Assembly: GCA_024397995.1 (NCBI GenBank)
Contig: CP073746.1
Coordinates: 2,232,001 to 2,296,000, forward strand
Direction of reading: 5' to 3'
Source of the DNA: a bacterium SCSIO 12827
Lineage (GTDB): Bacteria > Pseudomonadota > Alphaproteobacteria > Rhodospirillales > Casp-alpha2
DNA: 64,000 nucleotides
The position numbers and the translations under genes are program-made. Positions 27,618 to 64,000 of this stretch are shown here, piece after piece. The stretch's first letter is position 1. Every line of letters starts with the position of its first letter. The notes under the pieces are model-generated. The model was given only the letters and a program-made list of their open reading frames with translations, made no database searches and was not told the origin of the DNA.

Positions 27618-28319
27618 TTAGGCGAGTCCGAGGCCCGCGAACAGGAAATTCATCAGGGCCGACGCGGGAACCCCCACCAGCCACCAGAACACGTTCAGGT
27701 CCATGCCGATCTGATCGCCGATCAGGGGCAGCAGGAACACCGCCCCCCGGATAATCAGGAATCCCACCCGTTCCAACCGGGCAAGCGGAATCGCCAGGAA
27801 GTCGGGCAGCAGACCGACGGCCACGCGTCCGCCGTCCAGGGGCGGTATCGGCAGCATATTGAACACGGCCAAAATCAGGTTGATCCATACGGAATTGACC
27901 AGATTGCGCCCCATCCATTCACCCAATTCCGGCGGCAGGGCGGCGACGCTGGTCAGCGCCACGGCGGACAATACCGCCAGGATCAGGTTGGCCCCCGGCC
28001 CGGCGGCGGCGACAAGGACCATGTCGCGGCGCGGCCGGTTGAGGCGGGAAAAATTCACGGGCACCGGTTTGGCATAACCGAACATGAAGCGCCCGCCCGA
28101 GCCCAGCAGCAACAGGGCCGGCAGCAGGATGGTGCCGAAGAGATCAATATGTTTCAGAGGGTTGAAGGTCACACGGCCCAGGTTCTTCGCCGTGGCGTCC
28201 CCCAACATATTGGCGACGAAGCCGTGCGCGGCTTCGTGAAACGTGACGGCCAGCAGCACAGGCAAGATCCAGACGGAAACCGTATAGGCCAGCCCGGCAA
28301 GGTCGAAATCGGTCATCAT
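27618..28319 (-). CDS. site-2 protease family (M50) membrane metalloprotease
   Basis: Integral membrane zinc protease of 233 residues. The zinc motif is HEAAH in VTFHEAAHGFVANMLGD, and the third ligand motif is NMLPIPPLDGGRV near residue 160. Members of this short subfamily (rhomboid-independent, no PDZ domain) cleave membrane proteins; the substrate is unknown. Its ATG overlaps the nagZ stop by four bases (ATGA). The same position next to scpA is common in Alphaproteobacteria. Confidence 0.92.
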   Translation of the reverse strand: MMTDFDLAGLAYTVSVWILPVLLAVTFHEAAHGFVANMLGDATAKNLGRVTFNPLKHIDLFGTILLPALLLLGSGGRFMFGYAKPVPVNFSRLNRPRRDMVLVAAAGPGANLILAVLSAVALTSVAALPPELGEWMGRNLVNSVWINLILAVFNMLPIPPLDGGRVAVGLLPDFLAIPLARLERVGFLIIRGAVFLLPLIGDQIGMDLNVFWWLVGVPASALMNFLFAGLGLA

Positions 28320-53176: not shown

Positions 53177-53833
53177 TCAGCCCCAGTTATCAAGCCCTTC
53201 CGCCCGGTTGACCATGGTGTCGATTTCCTTCTTCACCAGGCGTTCAATCAGGTAGGGCAGGTTGCGGTCCAGCCATTCGCGCAGGATCGGCTTCAGCATT
53301 TCACGCACGATGCCTTCCAGCGACGCATCGCCCGAGGACATGACCGGCAGGTCGCGGCGGTCGAGGATCGCCCGGGCCAGTTCGGCCAGGACGTCCGAGC
53401 CGTGCAGCGAGGTCGGCCGCGACATGATGGCGTCGGGGGCAACCATATCCGGGGTCAATTCCATGATGTCCGCCATCGGTTCCGGCTCCGGCATGGGGGG
53501 CGGCGGCGGGGGCGGAGGCGGCGCAGCGGCGGCCACGGGCTCCGGCTCCGGCTCGAACAGATCTTCCGGCTCAGGCATGGGCTCCGGCTCGGGTTCCGGC
53601 TCGTCCATGTCGGTCATTTCGATGTCGGGTTCCGGTTCGGGCTCCGGTTCCGGCTCGGGCTCCGGTTCGGGCGCAGGTGCCGGTTCAGGCTCGGGTTCCG
53701 GCGCGGCAGCCTGTTCGGCCGGCGCATCGCCTCCCTCTTCATCCTCTTCCTCCGCCAAAATCTTGCGGATGGAAGAAAGGATGTCTTCCATCGAAGGTTC
53801 GCCGCCTTCAGCAGCTTCGGCTTCTTCGCTCAT
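53177..53833 (-). CDS. popZ: polar organizing protein PopZ / DUF2497 family
   Basis: Protein of 218 residues with the PopZ plan: an N-terminal helix ([19 protein letters not shown]), a disordered Pro/Glu-rich linker with long EPEP runs (about 45-125), and C-terminal helices ([37 protein letters not shown]). PopZ forms polar condensates that anchor the ParB-parS centromere. Location between tolC and valS is the usual alphaproteobacterial one. The linker is low-complexity DNA, so length may vary between strains. Confidence 0.9.
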
Positions 53834-54031
53834 AATCCCGCATGCCCATCAATTCTTGTCGCGGTCCCCGGCTCCCCACTCCCACGCAGGTCCGAGTCAC
53901 GCCACTTTTCCCAAGATACACCAGCCATTAACTCACGATGATCGTTAATAATTGGTATATCACAGGAATTAATTGTCGGGCGCCGTCATGGGCGCCGCTA
54001 GGTTCAGCGACGGCAAGGGGCGAGAGCCGCC

Positions 54032-55483
54032 CTACTTGCCTTCTTCGCTGCTCGACCCGCCGACCCACTTGCCGCGCACTTCGTCGTAATGCATGCGCGG
54101 ATCGTAAACATCGACGGCCAGTTTCAGGTCCGTGGCGGTCATCCGGCCAATGGCGGCCGACAGCTCGAACGCGGCGATCCGCTCGTCCCGCTGGGCCTCC
54201 GTATGACCGACGCGAGAATCCAGAAGTTCCTGTTCCGCGTCCAAAACATCCAGAACCGTGCGCGATCCAACGGCGGCTTCGCGCTCGACCCCGTCCAGGG
54301 CGACCACGTTGGCCTCGATCTGGGCGCTGAACGACACCACGCGGGCGCGGGCCGTCTGCAGGTTCTCCCAGGCGCTGGTCGCGTCCTCGATGGCGTCGCG
54401 GCGGGCCTGGTCGATGTTGCGGGTCAGTTCGGCAAGGCTTTGCTTGGCCTCACGCAGGCGCGAATAGACGCTGCCCTGCTGATAGATCGGAATGGTCAGG
54501 TTGACCCGAACCTCGGCCGAATCGATGCGACCCGTATCGCCAGAGGATTCATAGGATCGGTCGGCACTGGCGGTGACATCGACCTCGGGCAGCAACTCAC
54601 CCTTGACCTCACGCACCGTATTCATCCCCGCCTTGCGGTCAAATTCGGCCGCGATAACGTTGGGGTTGGTGGTCGCCGCCATCTTGATGGCATCATGCCG
54701 ATCCTTCGGCAGCCCCCCGGGCTCGCCCGGAAGTTCCAAATTCTTCGGCGCCGGCAAACCGACCACGTTTTCGTATGTGGCGCGGGAGTTTTCCAGATTG
54801 GCTTCGGCCCGGATGCGGTCGGCCGTGGCGCCGGCCAGGCGGGCTTCGGCCTGGTGCACGTCGGTGCGCGTGATCTCGCCGACCTCAAACCGGTCCTTGG
54901 TCGCTTCAAGCTGACGCTTGAGCACCTTTTCGTTGTTGATGTTGAGCGCCAGCACGGCCTCGTCGCGGAACACGTTCAGATAGGCCGTCGCGGCGGCCAG
55001 CAGAATGTCCTGTTCCGTGTCGATCAGACGCGCGCGCTCGGCACGAACGGCGTTTTCCGCCCCTTCCGTCGCCGCCAGCGTACGCCCACCACGGTACAGC
55101 GGTTGGGTGATCGACAGGCCGACGGTTGCAGGATTGCGGTTCTGCGTGCGGTCCGTCGTGCGCAGGGTCGAACGGTTGCGCTCGTATCCGGCATCACCAG
55201 TGATGGCGACCGACGGCCGCCAATTGGACAGCGCCTGGGGCACCTGTTCGTCCGTGGCGCGCAAACGCGCCCGGCGGGCCGCCAGGGTCGGGTTATTGGA
55301 ATAGGCGGCAATCAGCGCCTCAGCCAGGGTTTGCGCCTGGGCCGGCGCCGGCGCGAGAGCAAGCGCACCCGCAAGCCCCGCGGCAACGACGGCAGCGCGG
55401 GAAATTCCGGGAACATACTGAAACGGAGAGAGGATTCGCGTGATCAAGGCCGTTACTCGCCTGTGGTTGTGTCGGACTAACAT
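54032..55483 (-). CDS. tolC: TolC family outer-membrane efflux protein
   Basis: Outer-membrane channel of 483 residues for type I secretion and multidrug efflux. A signal peptide ends near PAPAQAQ (about residue 50) after a longer than usual N-terminal lead. TolC repeats start with TLAEALIAAYSNNPTLAARR, and VGLSITQPLYRGGRTLAATE and NLTIPIYQQGSVYSRLREAK mark the two halves. AGG lies 6 bases before the ATG. The AT-rich 123-base upstream region may hold a promoter. Confidence 0.94.
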   Translation of the reverse strand: MLVRHNHRRVTALITRILSPFQYVPGISRAAVVAAGLAGALALAPAPAQAQTLAEALIAAYSNNPTLAARRARLRATDEQVPQALSNWRPSVAITGDAGYERNRSTLRTTDRTQNRNPATVGLSITQPLYRGGRTLAATEGAENAVRAERARLIDTEQDILLAAATAYLNVFRDEAVLALNINNEKVLKRQLEATKDRFEVGEITRTDVHQAEARLAGATADRIRAEANLENSRATYENVVGLPAPKNLELPGEPGGLPKDRHDAIKMAATTNPNVIAAEFDRKAGMNTVREVKGELLPEVDVTASADRSYESSGDTGRIDSAEVRVNLTIPIYQQGSVYSRLREAKQSLAELTRNIDQARRDAIEDATSAWENLQTARARVVSFSAQIEANVVALDGVEREAAVGSRTVLDVLDAEQELLDSRVGHTEAQRDERIAAFELSAAIGRMTATDLKLAVDVYDPRMHYDEVRGKWVGGSSSEEGK

Positions 55484-55606
55484 ACTACCTGCATTCGCCG
55501 CGTCCAGATTTCAACAAAATACGTGCAAAAATACAGATAATTCAAAAACTTGCATATACAACATCTGATCGCCTCGCGGACCCGACCAGCATCGGATTCG
55601 GCTGCA

Positions 55607-56263
55607 TCAGAAGGTAAAGGCTTCCTCCAACTCGAACCCCGGGAGGTCCGGTGTTCCCGCGTCGAACAGATCGCGGTGAGAGATATGGCCACCGAAACGC
55701 GCCGCCAGGACCGCGCTGCCGACGGCGGAGCCACGCTTCGAGCAGACCGCCACGAGACGGCCGCCCTCGGCCAACTGCTTTTCGATTTTTTCCGGCACGC
55801 TGGGCACGGCGCCGTCAAAAAAGATGACGTCATACGGGGCCTGTTTCGGATAGCCGTTGGCCATCTTGCCGTCGATCACCGCAACCGTGTCGATGCCGAG
55901 TTCGGCCAGGGTTTCCTGGGCCTGCTTGGCCATCGCCTTGTCGCTTTCGACAACCACCACCGTATTCGCCAGCTTGGACAGCAAGGCCGGCGAATAGCCG
56001 GTGCCGCAGCCGATGCACAATACCACATCGTCGGCGCCGATACGTGCGGTCTGCAGCAGACGCGCGGTGATCATCGGCTCCATCAGGTAACGCCCGCCGC
56101 CCACGGCAAGGGCCTCGTCGACATAAGCGATGGATCGCTTGGTTTCGGGCACGAATGCTTCACGCGGCGTTTCCGCCATGGCGGCAATGACACGTTCGTC
56201 CGTGACCCGGTTGGGCAGGACCTGACAATCGATCATGTTTCGGCGCGCGGCTGCGAAATCCAT
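55607..56263 (-). CDS. protein-L-isoaspartate O-methyltransferase family, second copy
   Basis: Protein of 218 residues, PCMT family but divergent from the pcm at 21271. The start RRNMIDCQVLPNRVTDERVI and TPREAFVPETKRSIAYVDEA are typical of the copy that precedes tolC in Alphaproteobacteria. The SAM motif is VLCIGCGTGYSPALLSKLA, where the first Gly-rich residue pattern differs from canonical VLEIGTG. Whether it repairs isoaspartate is unknown. The ATG at 56263 has AAGGAG about 11 bases upstream. Confidence 0.9.
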   Translation of the reverse strand: MDFAAARRNMIDCQVLPNRVTDERVIAAMAETPREAFVPETKRSIAYVDEALAVGGGRYLMEPMITARLLQTARIGADDVVLCIGCGTGYSPALLSKLANTVVVVESDKAMAKQAQETLAELGIDTVAVIDGKMANGYPKQAPYDVIFFDGAVPSVPEKIEKQLAEGGRLVAVCSKRGSAVGSAVLAARFGGHISHRDLFDAGTPDLPGFELEEAFTF

Positions 56264-56419
56264 GTCGCCGGTTCTCCTTCGCGTTGGAACGGACCGCTTG
56301 GGGCCCGATTTGGCTGAATTCTGTATAGTCCCAGCCGTCGGCGAACACAATGGCGGCGCGCATTTCAGCGCCCTTTTCCAGGCCATTCCAGGCCCTTAAA
56401 AATTCGCCGGAACAGTTGC

Positions 56420-56448
56420 TTGACCACCGGGGGGTCAGTATGTAATGT
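56420..56448 (+). promoter_or_regulatory. predicted promoter for the tRNA pair
   Basis: TTGACC (56420-56425), 17-base spacer, TAATGT (56443-56448). It lies about 107 bases before tRNA-Cys, which implies a 5' leader removed by processing. Confidence 0.45.
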
Positions 56449-56555
56449 CCCGCCCTCTGTGGGCCGAAGCCGGTCAGCCTGGCCCTTGGAAGGGACTCCC
56501 GCAATGGGGTCGTTTCCTGGGGGATTAAGCCCCGGCACAGTTTGGTGCCATCTGG

Positions 56556-56629
56556 GGCGCGGTGGCGGAGTGGCTACGCAGCGGCCTGCAAAGCCGTGTA
56601 CACCGGTTCGATTCCGGTCCGCGCCTCCA
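56556..56629 (+). tRNA. tRNA-Cys (GCA)
   Basis: 74 bases. The acceptor stem GGCGCGG / CCGCGCC is fully paired, the discriminator is U as expected for cysteine, and CCA is encoded. Anticodon GCA lies in CCTGCAAAG. The T-loop GTTCGATTCC is standard. Confidence 0.97.
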
Positions 56630-56636
56630 CGCCTGA

Positions 56637-56712
56637 TCCGGCGTAGCTCAGTTGGTAGAGCAGTCGGCTGTTAACCGACTTGTCGCAAGTTCGAGTCTTG
56701 CCGCCGGAGCCA
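56637..56712 (+). tRNA. tRNA-Asn (GTT)
   Basis: 76 bases. Acceptor TCCGGCG / CGCCGGA, discriminator G, CCA encoded. Anticodon GTT lies in GGCTGTTAACC. D-loop AGCTCAGTTGGTAGAGC and T-loop GTTCGAGTC are standard. It starts seven bases after tRNA-Cys and shares its transcript. Confidence 0.97.
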
Positions 56713-56716
56713 ATTA

Positions 56717-56752
56717 AAAGGGCCAGTCCTGAGACCAGGACTGGCCCTTTTT
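56717..56752 (+). terminator. rho-independent terminator of the tRNA operon
   Basis: Perfect 15-bp stem, arms 56717-56731 and 56736-56750, loop AGAC, followed by TTTTT. Confidence 0.95.
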
Positions 56753-56773
56753 CATTGCCACGCCCGCCTGGGA

Positions 56774-56989
56774 TCAATCGGCGAACGTCAGGCACAGCGC
56801 CGTTACGTCGTCGGCGCAGGGCCCGGAATGGTTTTCGATCAAGGCCGCCAGCGCCTGTGCTGCGCCGCCGTCATGATCCGTTAGGCGCCGGATGAGCCGC
56901 TCGAAGGCATGGGCGCCGGGGGCGTCACCGTCCATCAGGCTAAACATGCCGTCCGTGAACAGGACAAGGGCCCCGCCCCGGGGAATGTC
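56774..56989 (-). pseudogene. stranded C-terminal segment of the PP2C domain after an in-frame TAG
   Basis: Seventy-one codons stay open in the same frame directly after the TAG at 56990-56992 and end at a TGA (56774-56776). They encode DIPRGGALVLFTDGMFSLMD and end in CADDVTALCLTF. These are the two last metal-binding motifs (TDG and DDVT) of SpoIIE-type PP2C phosphatases. The segment has no start codon or ribosome-binding site of its own that fits. Confidence 0.85.
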
Positions 56990-58678
56990 CTAGCGCCGTA
57001 ATTCGTAGGGAAAGGCGCCGCTGGTGCCGACAGGAAGGCCCTTGCCCAGGCCGGGCGCAGGATCGCCGCCGTCAGCAGGAAACGCGACAGGATGGGGCAC
57101 CCCGGCGGCCGCATAGTCGAAGCGCCGGGCCGCGATATCGACGACGCCGTACAGCATGGCGGCATATTCGCCCGTCGGCAGAGCCTGTTTCAGGATTTCG
57201 TCGAGCCTGCGAAGCACAGTATCAGGCTGACCGTCACATGCCGCCACAAGCGCCTGCAGACGAATCGCATTAACGCCTGCGACGGGGCCATGCCCGGTCA
57301 TGTCCGCGATGAACAGGGCGAGGCGCCCATCGGCCAGCATCCGCCCGCCCCAGATGTCCCCGTTGACGCCGCTGCAGGCGGTCGACCAGACCGCGAAACG
57401 CACACCGGCCCCACCGCCAAGCACCGCGGGATCGGGCAACAGGGATTTCTGGTAGCGGGACAAAGCCGGGGACAGGCGAACACCCGCGTCGCTGCCGATC
57501 TCCATACTGGCAGGCAGGATGACCGCCCGCGCCGCGGCTTCGACCAGATCAGGGTCCTCCGGCAGGGTGAGCGGCGGTGTGTCGACATCGCCATGGTGGA
57601 GGGTGACCGCCCCTGCCCCGGACGCCGAGATCGTCAATGTCGCCTCAGGCAGCGTGGCGGCGCCGTCATTTGTCACCACGCGCCAATCCCCGACTGCGCG
57701 CAATCTGTCTGCGACCCCGTCCGGCACCGGTCCCACCACCGCGATGGCAGGCCGCGGCGCGGCGGTTCCGGTCACCCCCGGCGCCGGCTTGTTCCGCACC
57801 ATCACCTCGACGATATTTCCGGCCCCCATATAGGCCATCGCTTCGAACGCCATTTTCCGGGCCATCGCGATGCCGCGACCATGGGTATCGAACGCCCGCT
57901 CCAGGGTCAGGTCGACATAGGAATGCCAATCGAACCCCTTGCCTTCATCGGTGATTCGGAAACGTGTCTGCGTGGTGGTTCGGGTCACCTCCACCGTAAC
58001 CCGCCGGTCCTTGTAGGGGGCTTCGCGCAGGCGTGCGTCGATGACCGCATCCCAACGCCCCTCGGCCATCAGGGACGATTTGTTTTTGTAATCCAATTCA
58101 AGATTGCCGTGCTCGACCGCGTTTATCATCAGTTCCGACAACCCCATGGCGACGGCTGGTGGGCGCTCGAAACCGCCGGCCAATAGAACGGCCAGGGAAT
58201 CGGCTTCCTTGGGCGTCATGAAGACAAAGCGGCCTTCGGCCAGCAACCTGATCGCGCCGGATCGTTTGGCCAGTTCCTGTTGCAGGCGCTGTTGGCGGGC
58301 AAAATTGTCGGCCGCCCCACGCACGACGGAAACCAAAACGTCAACGTCATAGGGTTTAGTCAGGTAGTAATAGACCCCCGCCTCGATGCCATCGACGATT
58401 TCGGCCTCAAGGTCCATGGCCGTCTGCATGATCACCGGAATGGCCTTCAGATCCGGATCGCCCTTGATCTTGGAGAGCACTTCCATGCCATCCATTTCAG
58501 GCATTTTCCGGTCAAGGAGAATGGCGTCGTACTGCGCTTCGCCGCCGGACAGCATGGCCCAGGCCTCGGCGCCGTCAGCGGCCTCGTCGATCACGAAGCC
58601 CTCGGGCTCCAGACAATACCTCAGGGTCTGACGATTGAAGTCCTCGTCATCGACGATCAGAACCCGGACATTCGGCAT
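56990..58678 (-). CDS. response regulator-HATPase-PP2C (SpoIIE) protein, interrupted by amber codon
   Basis: 562 codons to the TAG. Receiver domain at about 1-120 (acid pocket D10-D11, phospho-acceptor D56 in LLDRKMPEMDG, K108 in YYLTKPY). An RsbW-like HATPase domain follows at about 165-300 (GLSELMINAVEHGN). A SpoIIE/PP2C phosphatase starts at about 385 (SGVNGDIWGG, FIADMTGHGPVAG). It would control a STAS antagonist by phosphorylation and dephosphorylation, and a STAS gene lies 28 bases upstream. The TAG cuts off the last 71 codons, which contain two essential Asp motifs, so phosphatase activity should be lost unless the codon is read through or is an error. Confidence 0.88.
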   Translation of the reverse strand: MPNVRVLIVDDEDFNRQTLRYCLEPEGFVIDEAADGAEAWAMLSGGEAQYDAILLDRKMPEMDGMEVLSKIKGDPDLKAIPVIMQTAMDLEAEIVDGIEAGVYYYLTKPYDVDVLVSVVRGAADNFARQQRLQQELAKRSGAIRLLAEGRFVFMTPKEADSLAVLLAGGFERPPAVAMGLSELMINAVEHGNLELDYKNKSSLMAEGRWDAVIDARLREAPYKDRRVTVEVTRTTTQTRFRITDEGKGFDWHSYVDLTLERAFDTHGRGIAMARKMAFEAMAYMGAGNIVEVMVRNKPAPGVTGTAAPRPAIAVVGPVPDGVADRLRAVGDWRVVTNDGAATLPEATLTISASGAGAVTLHHGDVDTPPLTLPEDPDLVEAAARAVILPASMEIGSDAGVRLSPALSRYQKSLLPDPAVLGGGAGVRFAVWSTACSGVNGDIWGGRMLADGRLALFIADMTGHGPVAGVNAIRLQALVAACDGQPDTVLRRLDEILKQALPTGEYAAMLYGVVDIAARRFDYAAAGVPHPVAFPADGGDPAPGLGKGLPVGTSGAFPYELRR

Positions 58679-58706
58679 GCCGGTTTCCCCGCTGAATCAA
58701 TATGGA

Positions 58707-59012
58707 TCAGGGCTTGAACGTGAACAGGGTATCGAAACAGGCAAGGTCGAGGACTTCCTTGACGCTGCCGGTCATGCCGGAAAGCGTGATTGTCCGGCCT
58801 TTTTCCTGGGCCGCTTCGCGCAGGATCAAAAGGACACCCAACCCCGCCGAATCAATGTATTCGACGGCGGAAAGATCGACGATGATTTCAGGCAGATTGC
58901 CACGCATCAAAGCAAGCGCCAGGCCGGAAACCTCACCCCGGTCGGAAAAGGTCATCTGCCCGGAAATCCGGGCCGTGACCGTGTTTCCCTTCTCCGCAAC
59001 TTGATATTTCAC
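58707..59012 (-). CDS. STAS domain anti-sigma factor antagonist
   Basis: Protein of 101 residues with one STAS domain. The phosphorylatable Ser lies in VEYIDSAGLGVLLILREAA. Start: GTG at 59012, with AAGGAGG 7 bases upstream; a TTG six bases earlier lies too close to that site. It is the likely substrate of the HATPase/PP2C protein encoded immediately downstream, forming a partner-switching pair. The anti-sigma or other target is not in the window. Confidence 0.9.
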   Translation of the reverse strand: MKYQVAEKGNTVTARISGQMTFSDRGEVSGLALALMRGNLPEIIVDLSAVEYIDSAGLGVLLILREAAQEKGRTITLSGMTGSVKEVLDLACFDTLFTFKP

Positions 59013-59117
59013 CCTCAAGCCTCCTTCGATCGGGATCCTCCACCCTCGGACACCAGTTTACACACACCCGGGCGCCGAAATCAGCAGATTCTCCCGCCAC
59101 CCAAGCGGGCCCGACCA

Positions 59118-60026
59118 TCACGCCATGCCCAGCATCGCCCGCGTCTCGGCCGGGGTCGCCGGTTCGCGGCCGAACGTCTCGGCCATCTGCGCGACGCGCC
59201 GGACCAGATCGGCGTTTGTCGGGGCACCCAGTTCCGGATAGGGATAATCACCAAGACCAATCGCCACATGCCCGCCCATTTCCAGCGCCAGTGCCGCCGG
59301 ACCGAACAGGTTTCCGACCTTGTTGTTGACCGACCATTCGAACTTGACGCCCTGTGGCAGAAATTCCAGATGCGCCATCAGGCCCTTGATGGTCCCCGGG
59401 TGGCCGCCGAGGTAGCCCGAGTCCGACAACGCGAACAGCAGATAGGCCGGCTGATCGATCAGTTGCATTTCCAGGAATGCCTCGAACATGCGCGTGAACG
59501 GCACGGTCCAGGAAACGATCACCGGCTTGACCCCGATTTCGCGCATGCGGTTGGCGAAATAGGCACAGGTCTTGGGCGTGTTCACATAGGCCAATTCGTC
59601 CGTCTTCATGCGCTTGGCCGCCCGGTCGTAGACATCGACGTTGGTGGAGCCAATATCGATGGGCGCGAAATCGGGCTTTAGCGCCGGGTCTTCCGACGCC
59701 CTGACGATGTGCTGCAAGCGGGCCTCGTCCGAGGATTTCAGCGTTACCTGGCCCAGGGTCGGATGGATCATGATGTCGCTGGCGGCGCGGATTTTACGGA
59801 TCGTCTCGAAGTAGACGTCGGGATCGTGGTTGGGCGATCCGTCGGCGTTGCGGGCATGATAGTGGCAGATCGACGCCCCCGCCTCGCGGCAGGCGGCCGC
59901 CGCCTCGGCGATCTCGTCGGGCGTGAACGGCACGTTCGGATTGACGTCGCGCGCCATGTATTCGTTGACGCGAACCTCGATGATCACCTTCTTGCCGAAG
60001 CCCGGCACGGTGGACTGAAATTTCAT
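59118..60026 (-). CDS. beta-keto acid cleavage enzyme family (BKACE, DUF849)
   Basis: Zinc-dependent enzyme of 302 residues that condenses a beta-keto acid with acetyl-CoA to give acetoacetate and a new CoA ester. Zinc ligands are in ASICHYHARNADGSPNHDP. Family blocks: IMIHPTLGQVT, SDSGYLGGHPGTIKGLMAH and GGHVAIGLGDYPYPELGAPT. Substrate cannot be told. It is monocistronic as far as seen. Confidence 0.92.
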   Translation of the reverse strand: MKFQSTVPGFGKKVIIEVRVNEYMARDVNPNVPFTPDEIAEAAAACREAGASICHYHARNADGSPNHDPDVYFETIRKIRAASDIMIHPTLGQVTLKSSDEARLQHIVRASEDPALKPDFAPIDIGSTNVDVYDRAAKRMKTDELAYVNTPKTCAYFANRMREIGVKPVIVSWTVPFTRMFEAFLEMQLIDQPAYLLFALSDSGYLGGHPGTIKGLMAHLEFLPQGVKFEWSVNNKVGNLFGPAALALEMGGHVAIGLGDYPYPELGAPTNADLVRRVAQMAETFGREPATPAETRAMLGMA

Positions 60027-60152
60027 GGCCTGGATGTTCCCTGCGATACCAAGCCCCCCTCGGGGTCGTTGGTAGCCCCGGACCGAGACCGCGTCAATTC
60101 ATCCGCTCCGGAATCCTGGACGGGCACGTATTGCGGTACTATCTCAAACAGG

Positions 60153-62155: not shown

Positions 62156-62321
62156 CCGGCGGCATCCCGGCATAAGCAATTGAACGACAAGCAATCTTGA
62201 CGCCCGCCCCTGAAGGGCGCGACTATGTTACGAGCAGTCACGACGATGTTCCATCCGCATGCTAAGATGGCGGTCGGAAGATGCTCAAAAAGTACCGCCA
62301 CAGGCGGAAAGGTGTTCGAGG

Positions 62322-62897
62322 ATGAGTGATCCGGTCTCACCCGCCACAGAGTTGAATGACTTGCGGGATGCACAGCTTGAGATTCGGCAACTGAAAGAAA
62401 CCGTCGCCGCGCTCCGCGAGGAACTTGAAAACAAGGTCTTCGACATGCAGCGCGTCGAGCAGGAAGCGCGCGCCGAGGGCATCGACGAGATTAAGCAGCT
62501 GAAGGACACGGCCGCCGCCCTGCGAGAAGAAATGGAACAACTGAACTTCGCCCGCCAAAAGGAAGTTCAGGAAGAACGCGCCGCCGGCAACGACGAAATC
62601 ACTCAGCTCAAGAACACCATTCAGGCGCTGCGCGACGAGATGGAAACACTCAAGCTTGAAAAGGAACGGGAGCTGAACGAAGCAGTCTCCGCCGGACGCG
62701 ACGAAATTCAACAGCTCAAGGCGACCGTGGCGCATTTGCGACAGGAAATGGAAGACCTGAACTTCCGGCACCAGGAGACGGTGCAGGAACTGAACCGGAC
62801 CCGTCGGGACGAAGTCGGTGAACTGCAGCAAGCCATCGTCACCCTCCGGCGTACCCTTGAGGTCAAGTCCCAGCGGGGTTCCGAAGCGCGGCAATGA
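62322..62897 (+). CDS. coiled-coil protein made of 36-residue tandem repeats
   Basis: Protein of 191 residues. Residues 20-163 are four consecutive 36-residue repeats, each starting with E-(I)-x-(Q)-L-K and containing ALRxEME, and a partial fifth follows. Heptad hydrophobic spacing predicts a long parallel coiled coil. No membrane segment or signal peptide. The ATG at 62322 was preferred because the sequence before it is unlike protein. Its TGA overlaps the ATG of the GAF gene (ATGA), so the two are translated together and the proteins may form a complex. No known family. Confidence 0.85.
   Translation: MSDPVSPATELNDLRDAQLEIRQLKETVAALREELENKVFDMQRVEQEARAEGIDEIKQLKDTAAALREEMEQLNFARQKEVQEERAAGNDEITQLKNTIQALRDEMETLKLEKERELNEAVSAGRDEIQQLKATVAHLRQEMEDLNFRHQETVQELNRTRRDEVGELQQAIVTLRRTLEVKSQRGSEARQ
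62379..62810 (+). repeat. four 108-base tandem repeats (coding)
   Basis: Units 62379-62486, 62487-62594, 62595-62702 and 62703-62810, each coding for 36 residues, with a degenerate fifth to 62894. Protein repeats are clear; DNA copies have diverged, so the duplication is not recent. Confidence 0.85.
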
Positions 62898-64000
62898 GCG
62901 GCAATCAACCATCATCCGACACGATCGAACACGATAGCGCCGGCACCCCTCCTGCCCGTCCCGCCGCCCGTCCGGCCGCCAGGACCGTCGTCACGGACGA
63001 GGAAATACACCGCAAGCTGCACGAAGCCGACCGCCGCCTGAAACAGGCGGAGATGTTGTTGAACGTGTCCCGCCGAGTGGCCGGCATCGAATCGTTGGAC
63101 GAGGTTCTGGAAACCCTGGTCGAGGTCATCGTGTTCGAGTTGAAGGCCGAACGCGGCACCCTGTTCCTCAACGACCCGGCCACGGGCGAGCTCTATTCCC
63201 GCGTCGCCCAGGGCAATTTCCAGCGCGAAATCCGCATCCTCAACAACACCGGGATTGCTGGCGCCGTGTTCACTTCAGGTATCGGCGAGACCATCGACGA
63301 CGCCTATCAGGACAAGCGCTTCAACCGCTCCGTCGATGAACAGACCGGGTTCAAGACCGACACGATCTGCGCCGCCCCGGTGAAGACGGTGAAGGATGAA
63401 ATCATCGGCGTCGTGCAGTGTCTGAACAAGAAAAACGGTGAGGCTTTCGACGACGACGACCTGGCGTTGCTTGAGGCCATCACCACTCAGGCAGCCGTCG
63501 CCCTGCAGAGCACGCAATTCGTCGAGAGCATGAAGAAAAGCCGGGAACAGGAAATGAAGTTCCTGGATATGGTCTCGGACGTTACGTCGAACCTGGAACT
63601 GGGCTCGTTGCTGTCGCGCGTAATGTCCGAAGCGACCCGCATGCTGTCGGCAGATCGCTCGACCCTGTTCCTCAACGACGAAAAAACCAACGAGTTGTTT
63701 TCCCGCGTCGCCATGGGGGATTCCTTAGGCGAAATACGTCTGCCCAATCATCTGGGCATCGCCGGGGCCGTGTTCTGTTCCGGCGACACCATCAACATTC
63801 CCTACGCCTACGCGGACCTGCGCTTCAACCCGGCCTTCGACAAGAAGACGGGCTATTTCACGCGCTCGATCCTCTGCGTGCCCGTGGTCAACAAGGCGGG
63901 CAAGATGATCGGCGTGACCCAGGTCCTGAACAAGCGTGGCGGGCCGTTCACGGAAGAGGACGAAACGCGGCTCAAGGCGTTCACGGCGCAGGTCTCCATC
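62894..64000 (+). CDS. dual-GAF domain signalling protein (partial, C-terminus beyond right edge)
   Basis: 369 codons are visible, with no stop before the window edge. A disordered N-terminus (about 1-35) is followed by a short helix and two GAF domains at about 60-205 and 225-369. They are similar to each other: RGTLFLNDPATGELYSRVAQ in the first and RSTLFLNDEKTNELFSRVAM in the second, and both contain GIAGAVF and VxQxLNK. This pattern resembles cyclic-nucleotide-binding GAF pairs found before adenylate/guanylate cyclase, phosphatase or kinase domains; the output domain is outside the window. ATG overlaps the upstream stop. Confidence 0.88.
   Translation, partial: MSGNQPSSDTIEHDSAGTPPARPAARPAARTVVTDEEIHRKLHEADRRLKQAEMLLNVSRRVAGIESLDEVLETLVEVIVFELKAERGTLFLNDPATGELYSRVAQGNFQREIRILNNTGIAGAVFTSGIGETIDDAYQDKRFNRSVDEQTGFKTDTICAAPVKTVKDEIIGVVQCLNKKNGEAFDDDDLALLEAITTQAAVALQSTQFVESMKKSREQEMKFLDMVSDVTSNLELGSLLSRVMSEATRMLSADRSTLFLNDEKTNELFSRVAMGDSLGEIRLPNHLGIAGAVFCSGDTINIPYAYADLRFNPAFDKKTGYFTRSILCVPVVNKAGKMIGVTQVLNKRGGPFTEEDETRLKAFTAQVSI

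Follow-up and report, generated by a model that had tools for sequence, protein, structure and literature searches.

Does the in-frame TAG at 56990–56992 (reverse strand) of the window, i.e., the whole 64-kb stretch of DNA analyzed here, mark a recent loss of function in a regulator of the partner-switch type, a stop codon that is read through, or an error in the sequence?

Domain Structure of the Interrupted Gene

The TAG terminates a gene of 562 codons (56990–58678, reverse strand; ORF list and Pfam) and is followed in the same frame by an open continuation of 71 codons plus TGA (56774–56989, reverse strand) that carries no further lesion and includes both the LVLFTDG and ADDVTALCL motifs. 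The claim of an earlier note on this DNA that the stop splits a gene whose PP2C remainder lies in these 71 codons was borne out by the ORF frame, the two motifs, and Pfam. The 562-residue protein contains a receiver domain (Response_reg, PF00072; residues 6–119, 92 bits), an RsbW-type kinase domain (HATPase_c_2, PF13581; residues 117–291, 38.7 bits), and an incomplete PP2C domain (SpoIIE; residues 450–559) that matched profile positions 2–114 of 192 only, such that the last two PP2C aspartate motifs are lost from it, as also stated in the note. The name response regulator-PP2C given there held for the receiver and the phosphatase and left out the kinase domain in the middle. The 71-residue tail alone matched SpoIIE profile positions 120–191 of 192 (E = 1.1e-5). 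The protein of the sister genome, G004, which is intact, matched positions 2–191 in a single stretch; since the two window parts match successive positions that are unbroken in the sister, the continuation is not a chance open frame.

The kinase residues E182, N186, H190, and DEG.GFD (244–250) were unchanged in all six aligned sequences, and the catalytic asparagine of the kinase domain presumably has its place among them. For NCBIfam, 25 of 95 families were listed for the 562-residue protein, all within the receiver end (residues 1–182) and none reaching its cut-off. Within the kinase part, window 57880–58330 was 79–86% identical to G004 vs. approximately 94% just upstream, and both the window and G004 were 79–86% identical to the congener G001 over this stretch. 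Synonymous divergence between the window and G004 was 0.52 in the kinase part vs. 0.17–0.31 elsewhere in the gene, and window 57880–58330 looks like a recombined segment.

Intact Relatives and the Codon Replaced by the Stop

The window genome (3.93 Mb, single contig, 99% complete; designated G000 in the genus comparison) is the only one of its species among the genomes compared. Among the matches listed, an orthologue was present in at least five of the eight genus genomes, its own included (G000, G004, G001, G002, and G007), and the best matches in G003, G005, and G006 covered the receiver end only, with G003 and G005 being drafts of 430 and 200 contigs. Identity to the window over the 562 residues was 91% in the sister G004, 80% in G001, and 63% in G002, and the G007 gene was split over two contigs in pieces that were 64 and 63% identical. 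The frame was open across the TAG position with the tail present in G004, G001, G002, and G007, and the three congener proteins tested in one piece matched the SpoIIE profile up to position 190 or 191 of 192. The lesion is private to the window lineage as represented by one genome of its species, with the orthologues intact in all four congeners that have the gene. A recent event in a once-intact gene, as had been proposed, agrees with the sister's copy, which is intact and 91% identical, and with a tail free of other lesions.

The comparison of the closest relatives at this position revealed no shared stop, and the codons opposite the TAG were TTG, CTG, CTC, and CTC, i.e., leucine in 4/4 congeners with the gene. 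Origin of the TAG by a single C-to-T change from CAG (Gln), as suggested in the earlier note, is not supported because the relatives have leucine.

In a wider search, tblastn yielded 10 matches to the PP2C part in 10 of 79 loci, all of which extend 72–254 residues beyond the stop position; a (T/S)D(G/A) motif was found in 10/10 and DD(V/L)T in at least eight. Homologues that naturally end at the stop position, which by the earlier note would have refuted its proposal, numbered none among these 10 matches in the 79 loci. In Terasakiella pusilla (L084:3370–5717), three adjacent ORFs encode a STAS protein, a kinase, and a receiver-PP2C protein, an arrangement that appears to be a fission/fusion variant of the same partner-switch system.

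Reading of the TAG Codon

Programmed or tolerated readthrough, giving one kinase-only product and one with both kinase and phosphatase, would suit a tail that remains in frame and appears constrained on the window branch (see below) as well as the purine that follows the TAG. It is nevertheless highly improbable: a CTA anticodon is missing from all 41 tRNA genes detected in the genome (Rfam search, typed by ARAGORN), the PylS model scored 30.1 and 25.1 bits, far below its cut-off of 178.15, the RNA fold 3′ of the TAG had a z of −0.79 with 38 of 200 shuffles folding equally well, and the stop is common to no congener. With a sense codon in 4/4 congeners that have the gene, the stop itself is not conserved, and the readthrough raised as an option in the earlier note found no positive evidence in the tRNAs, PylS, or fold. 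A form of the same idea, in which low-level readthrough yields mostly kinase-only protein and little full kinase-phosphatase so that translation sets the ratio of both activities, is granted an equally slight probability.

Several specific routes around the stop were rejected. Reassignment of TAG or its use for pyrrolysine was discarded on the anticodon and PylS results and on the termination of 19/63 gene-like ORFs of the sister stretch by TAG; in the window genome, this codon appears to serve as a normal stop. A structured readthrough signal was dismissed as the fold 3′ of the TAG was no better than shuffles. Re-initiation could use an in-frame ATG at 56947 or 56935 or a TTG at 56842 after the stop; no Shine-Dalgarno-like stretch was seen by eye in the 18 bases before each of these starts, and the product of at most 57 residues would lack most of the PP2C domain.

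Age of the Stop and Reliability of the Base

Between the window and G004, dN/dS was 0.18 in the body and 0.25 in the tail. With G001 as the outgroup, seven synonymous and three non-synonymous codon changes in the tail fell on the window branch, and so few non-synonymous changes have a probability of 0.005–0.013 under neutrality across that whole branch in a test resting on 10 changes. The constraint suggests that the stop is young, and it is weak given that the sister branch, where the gene is intact, had one synonymous and four non-synonymous changes in this tail. Purifying selection on the tail is equally expected from readthrough or continued translation and from a base error.

This last possibility, a base-calling or assembly error with the gene of the organism itself intact, was weighed by surveying the syntenic stretch of G004, with its 63 gene-like ORFs, against the 64-kb window and judging flagged cases by eye. 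Ten ORFs were flagged, and the receiver-kinase-PP2C gene was the only mid-gene nonsense after the other nine had been set aside: six had lesions at codons 4–34, as wrong start choices would give, one had two indels (5 and 1 bases) that jointly keep the frame, its window ORF having a complete M23 peptidase match, 27856–28239 was antisense to a coding-like ORF (27618–28319), and 63304–63747 was antisense to a GAF/cyclase-like gene (named by eye). As no second mid-gene nonsense or unrestored frameshift was found in the 64 kb, the assembly is not error-rich in the window. An error would also leave what is seen here, one substitution in a gene that is intact elsewhere, with a tail that has no extra lesion and appears constrained on the window branch. 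The clean surroundings on review by eye, the 99% complete single-contig genome, and the absence of the module from further congeners, which together with the empty site of G006 makes real loss plausible, weigh against it, such that an error is rather unlikely while retaining an appreciable share of the probability.

Two further features of the window were observed. The product of 53177–53833 combines a long tract of Glu-Pro repeats with a DUF2497 domain at its C-terminus and is taken here to belong to the PopZ-like pole organizer family. A coiled-coil-like protein of near-repeats is encoded at 62259–62897 immediately upstream of the GAF/cyclase-like gene (both named by eye).

STAS Partner and Distribution of the Module

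An intact anti-sigma-antagonist-like STAS gene of 103 amino acids (58707–59018, reverse strand; PF01740/PF13466) lies upstream of the interrupted gene and adjoins it in 5/5 genus genomes having the latter, its own included. Its product retains the DSAGLG stretch with the DSAG serine motif, the serine of which we assume to be the phosphosite after SpoIIAA/RsbV, and is the presumed substrate of the receiver-kinase-PP2C protein. From its sequence, the locus appears to be a partner-switch module of a receiver-kinase-phosphatase and a putative STAS substrate that is interrupted within the phosphatase.

In the single-contig congener G006, alignment of the flanks revealed a clean empty site (L220) where the stretch corresponding to window 56757–59117, with the STAS and receiver-kinase-PP2C genes, is missing. 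The flanks are 89–93% identical to the window with 9 bases between the flanking matches, and the BKACE gene and the tRNA-Asn/tRNA-Cys pair, which border the site on opposite sides, are both retained. The unrooted TolC and PCMT gene trees placed G000 with G004, separate from G006, G001, and G007, and G006 instead joined G000 in the BKACE tree; G001 has the module at the same site as the window. The simplest reading, which falls short of proof, is that the module was probably lost in G006. The module is accessory, being present among the matches listed in at least five of the eight genus genomes, its own included, and having a clean empty site in G006.

The order of BKACE vs. the STAS and receiver-kinase-PP2C genes in G002 and G007 (L125 and L127, compared with window 54000–60100) is unlike that of the window, and either the cassette or BKACE appears to have moved in these two genomes. 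The window genome also encodes a second partner-switch pair (L181:5049–7180; G000:C1 about 981–983 kb) comprising a GAF-PP2C-kinase of 599 amino acids, apparently intact, and a STAS protein, directly preceding MlaE, ABC ATPase, and MlaD genes.

Predicted Consequences of the Truncation

The locus is probably explained by a nonsense mutation of one base that arose recently in a partner-switch module, itself accessory and dispensable, and by which the phosphatase was lost and the kinase left. The ancestral protein would have combined a receiver with an RsbW-like serine kinase and a PP2C phosphatase of the RsbU/SpoIIE kind, the two enzymes acting oppositely on the product of the adjacent upstream STAS gene, and the TAG would remove the last 71 residues including two PP2C aspartate motifs. 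The aspartates of the TDG and DDVT motifs lie in this lost part, and we take it from SpoIIE/RsbU work that they bind metal. In an AlphaFold model of the sister protein (mean pLDDT 76.6, pTM 0.50, six sequences; of medium quality and used for secondary structure only), strands 570–574 and 625–632 and three helices lie beyond residue 563. With two aspartate motifs and, going by the sister's model, two strands missing, the phosphatase is most likely dead.

As the receiver and kinase regions are complete, a one-way kinase that would keep the STAS protein phosphorylated is the likeliest outcome. By analogy to SypE, the window protein, if stable, would be locked as a kinase; alternatively, the cut protein may be unstable with both activities gone. 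The stop, the intact relatives, the lost motifs, and the accessory status of the module are read directly from sequence, and the dead phosphatase, the kinase-locked state, and any effect on the cell are inferred. In the SypE/SypA system of Vibrio fischeri, the SypE kinase domain alone completely blocks RscS-induced biofilm and the model has the STAS protein inactivated by the kinase and reactivated by the phosphatase (PMC3610818). According to the same text, SypE acts both ways on its STAS protein, as presumed for the intact window family, and its single chain similarly holds an RsbW-like serine kinase, a receiver, and, at the C-terminus, a PP2C phosphatase; the kinase comes first with the receiver in the middle, in contrast to the receiver-kinase-PP2C order of the window family (PMC3610818).

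HsbR/HsbA of Pseudomonas and CrsR/CrsA of Shewanella likewise combine a receiver, a PP2C, and a kinase/anti-sigma domain with an anti-sigma-antagonist partner and have FlgM, HsbD, and RpoS as targets, whereas their order is receiver-PP2C-kinase (PMC6482189). The intact family is thus similar to SypE and HsbR/CrsR, with its domains in a different order.

Nonsense alleles of partner-switch phosphatases are already known, and the window stop is a further instance. The rsbU Q317* allele of Listeria monocytogenes is a natural nonsense mutation that, like the window allele, cuts a partner-switch PP2C within its C-terminal part, here ahead of a Mn-binding site, and behaves as loss of function; the isolate grew faster at 30°C, an effect that lacked significance at 37°C, and reversion of the allele was also observed in one copy (PMC13068326). 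In the same account, the phosphatase RsbU and the kinase RsbW are separate proteins (PMC13068326), whereas the window gene joins both activities in one chain. An adaptive truncation, with a kinase-locked or dead switch having been selected as for the loss of RsbU activity in Listeria, has a precedent in the faster growth and the reversion of that isolate (PMC13068326); with one genome it is not separable from drift and is regarded as improbable.

If real, the mutation would represent another natural loss of a partner-switch phosphatase with the kinase and the STAS partner remaining, in a lineage labeled Rhodospirillaceae among whose genomes the presence of the module varies. The stop would add little that is new regarding mechanism; the domain order of the intact relatives, receiver-kinase-PP2C, may be more useful than the stop itself.
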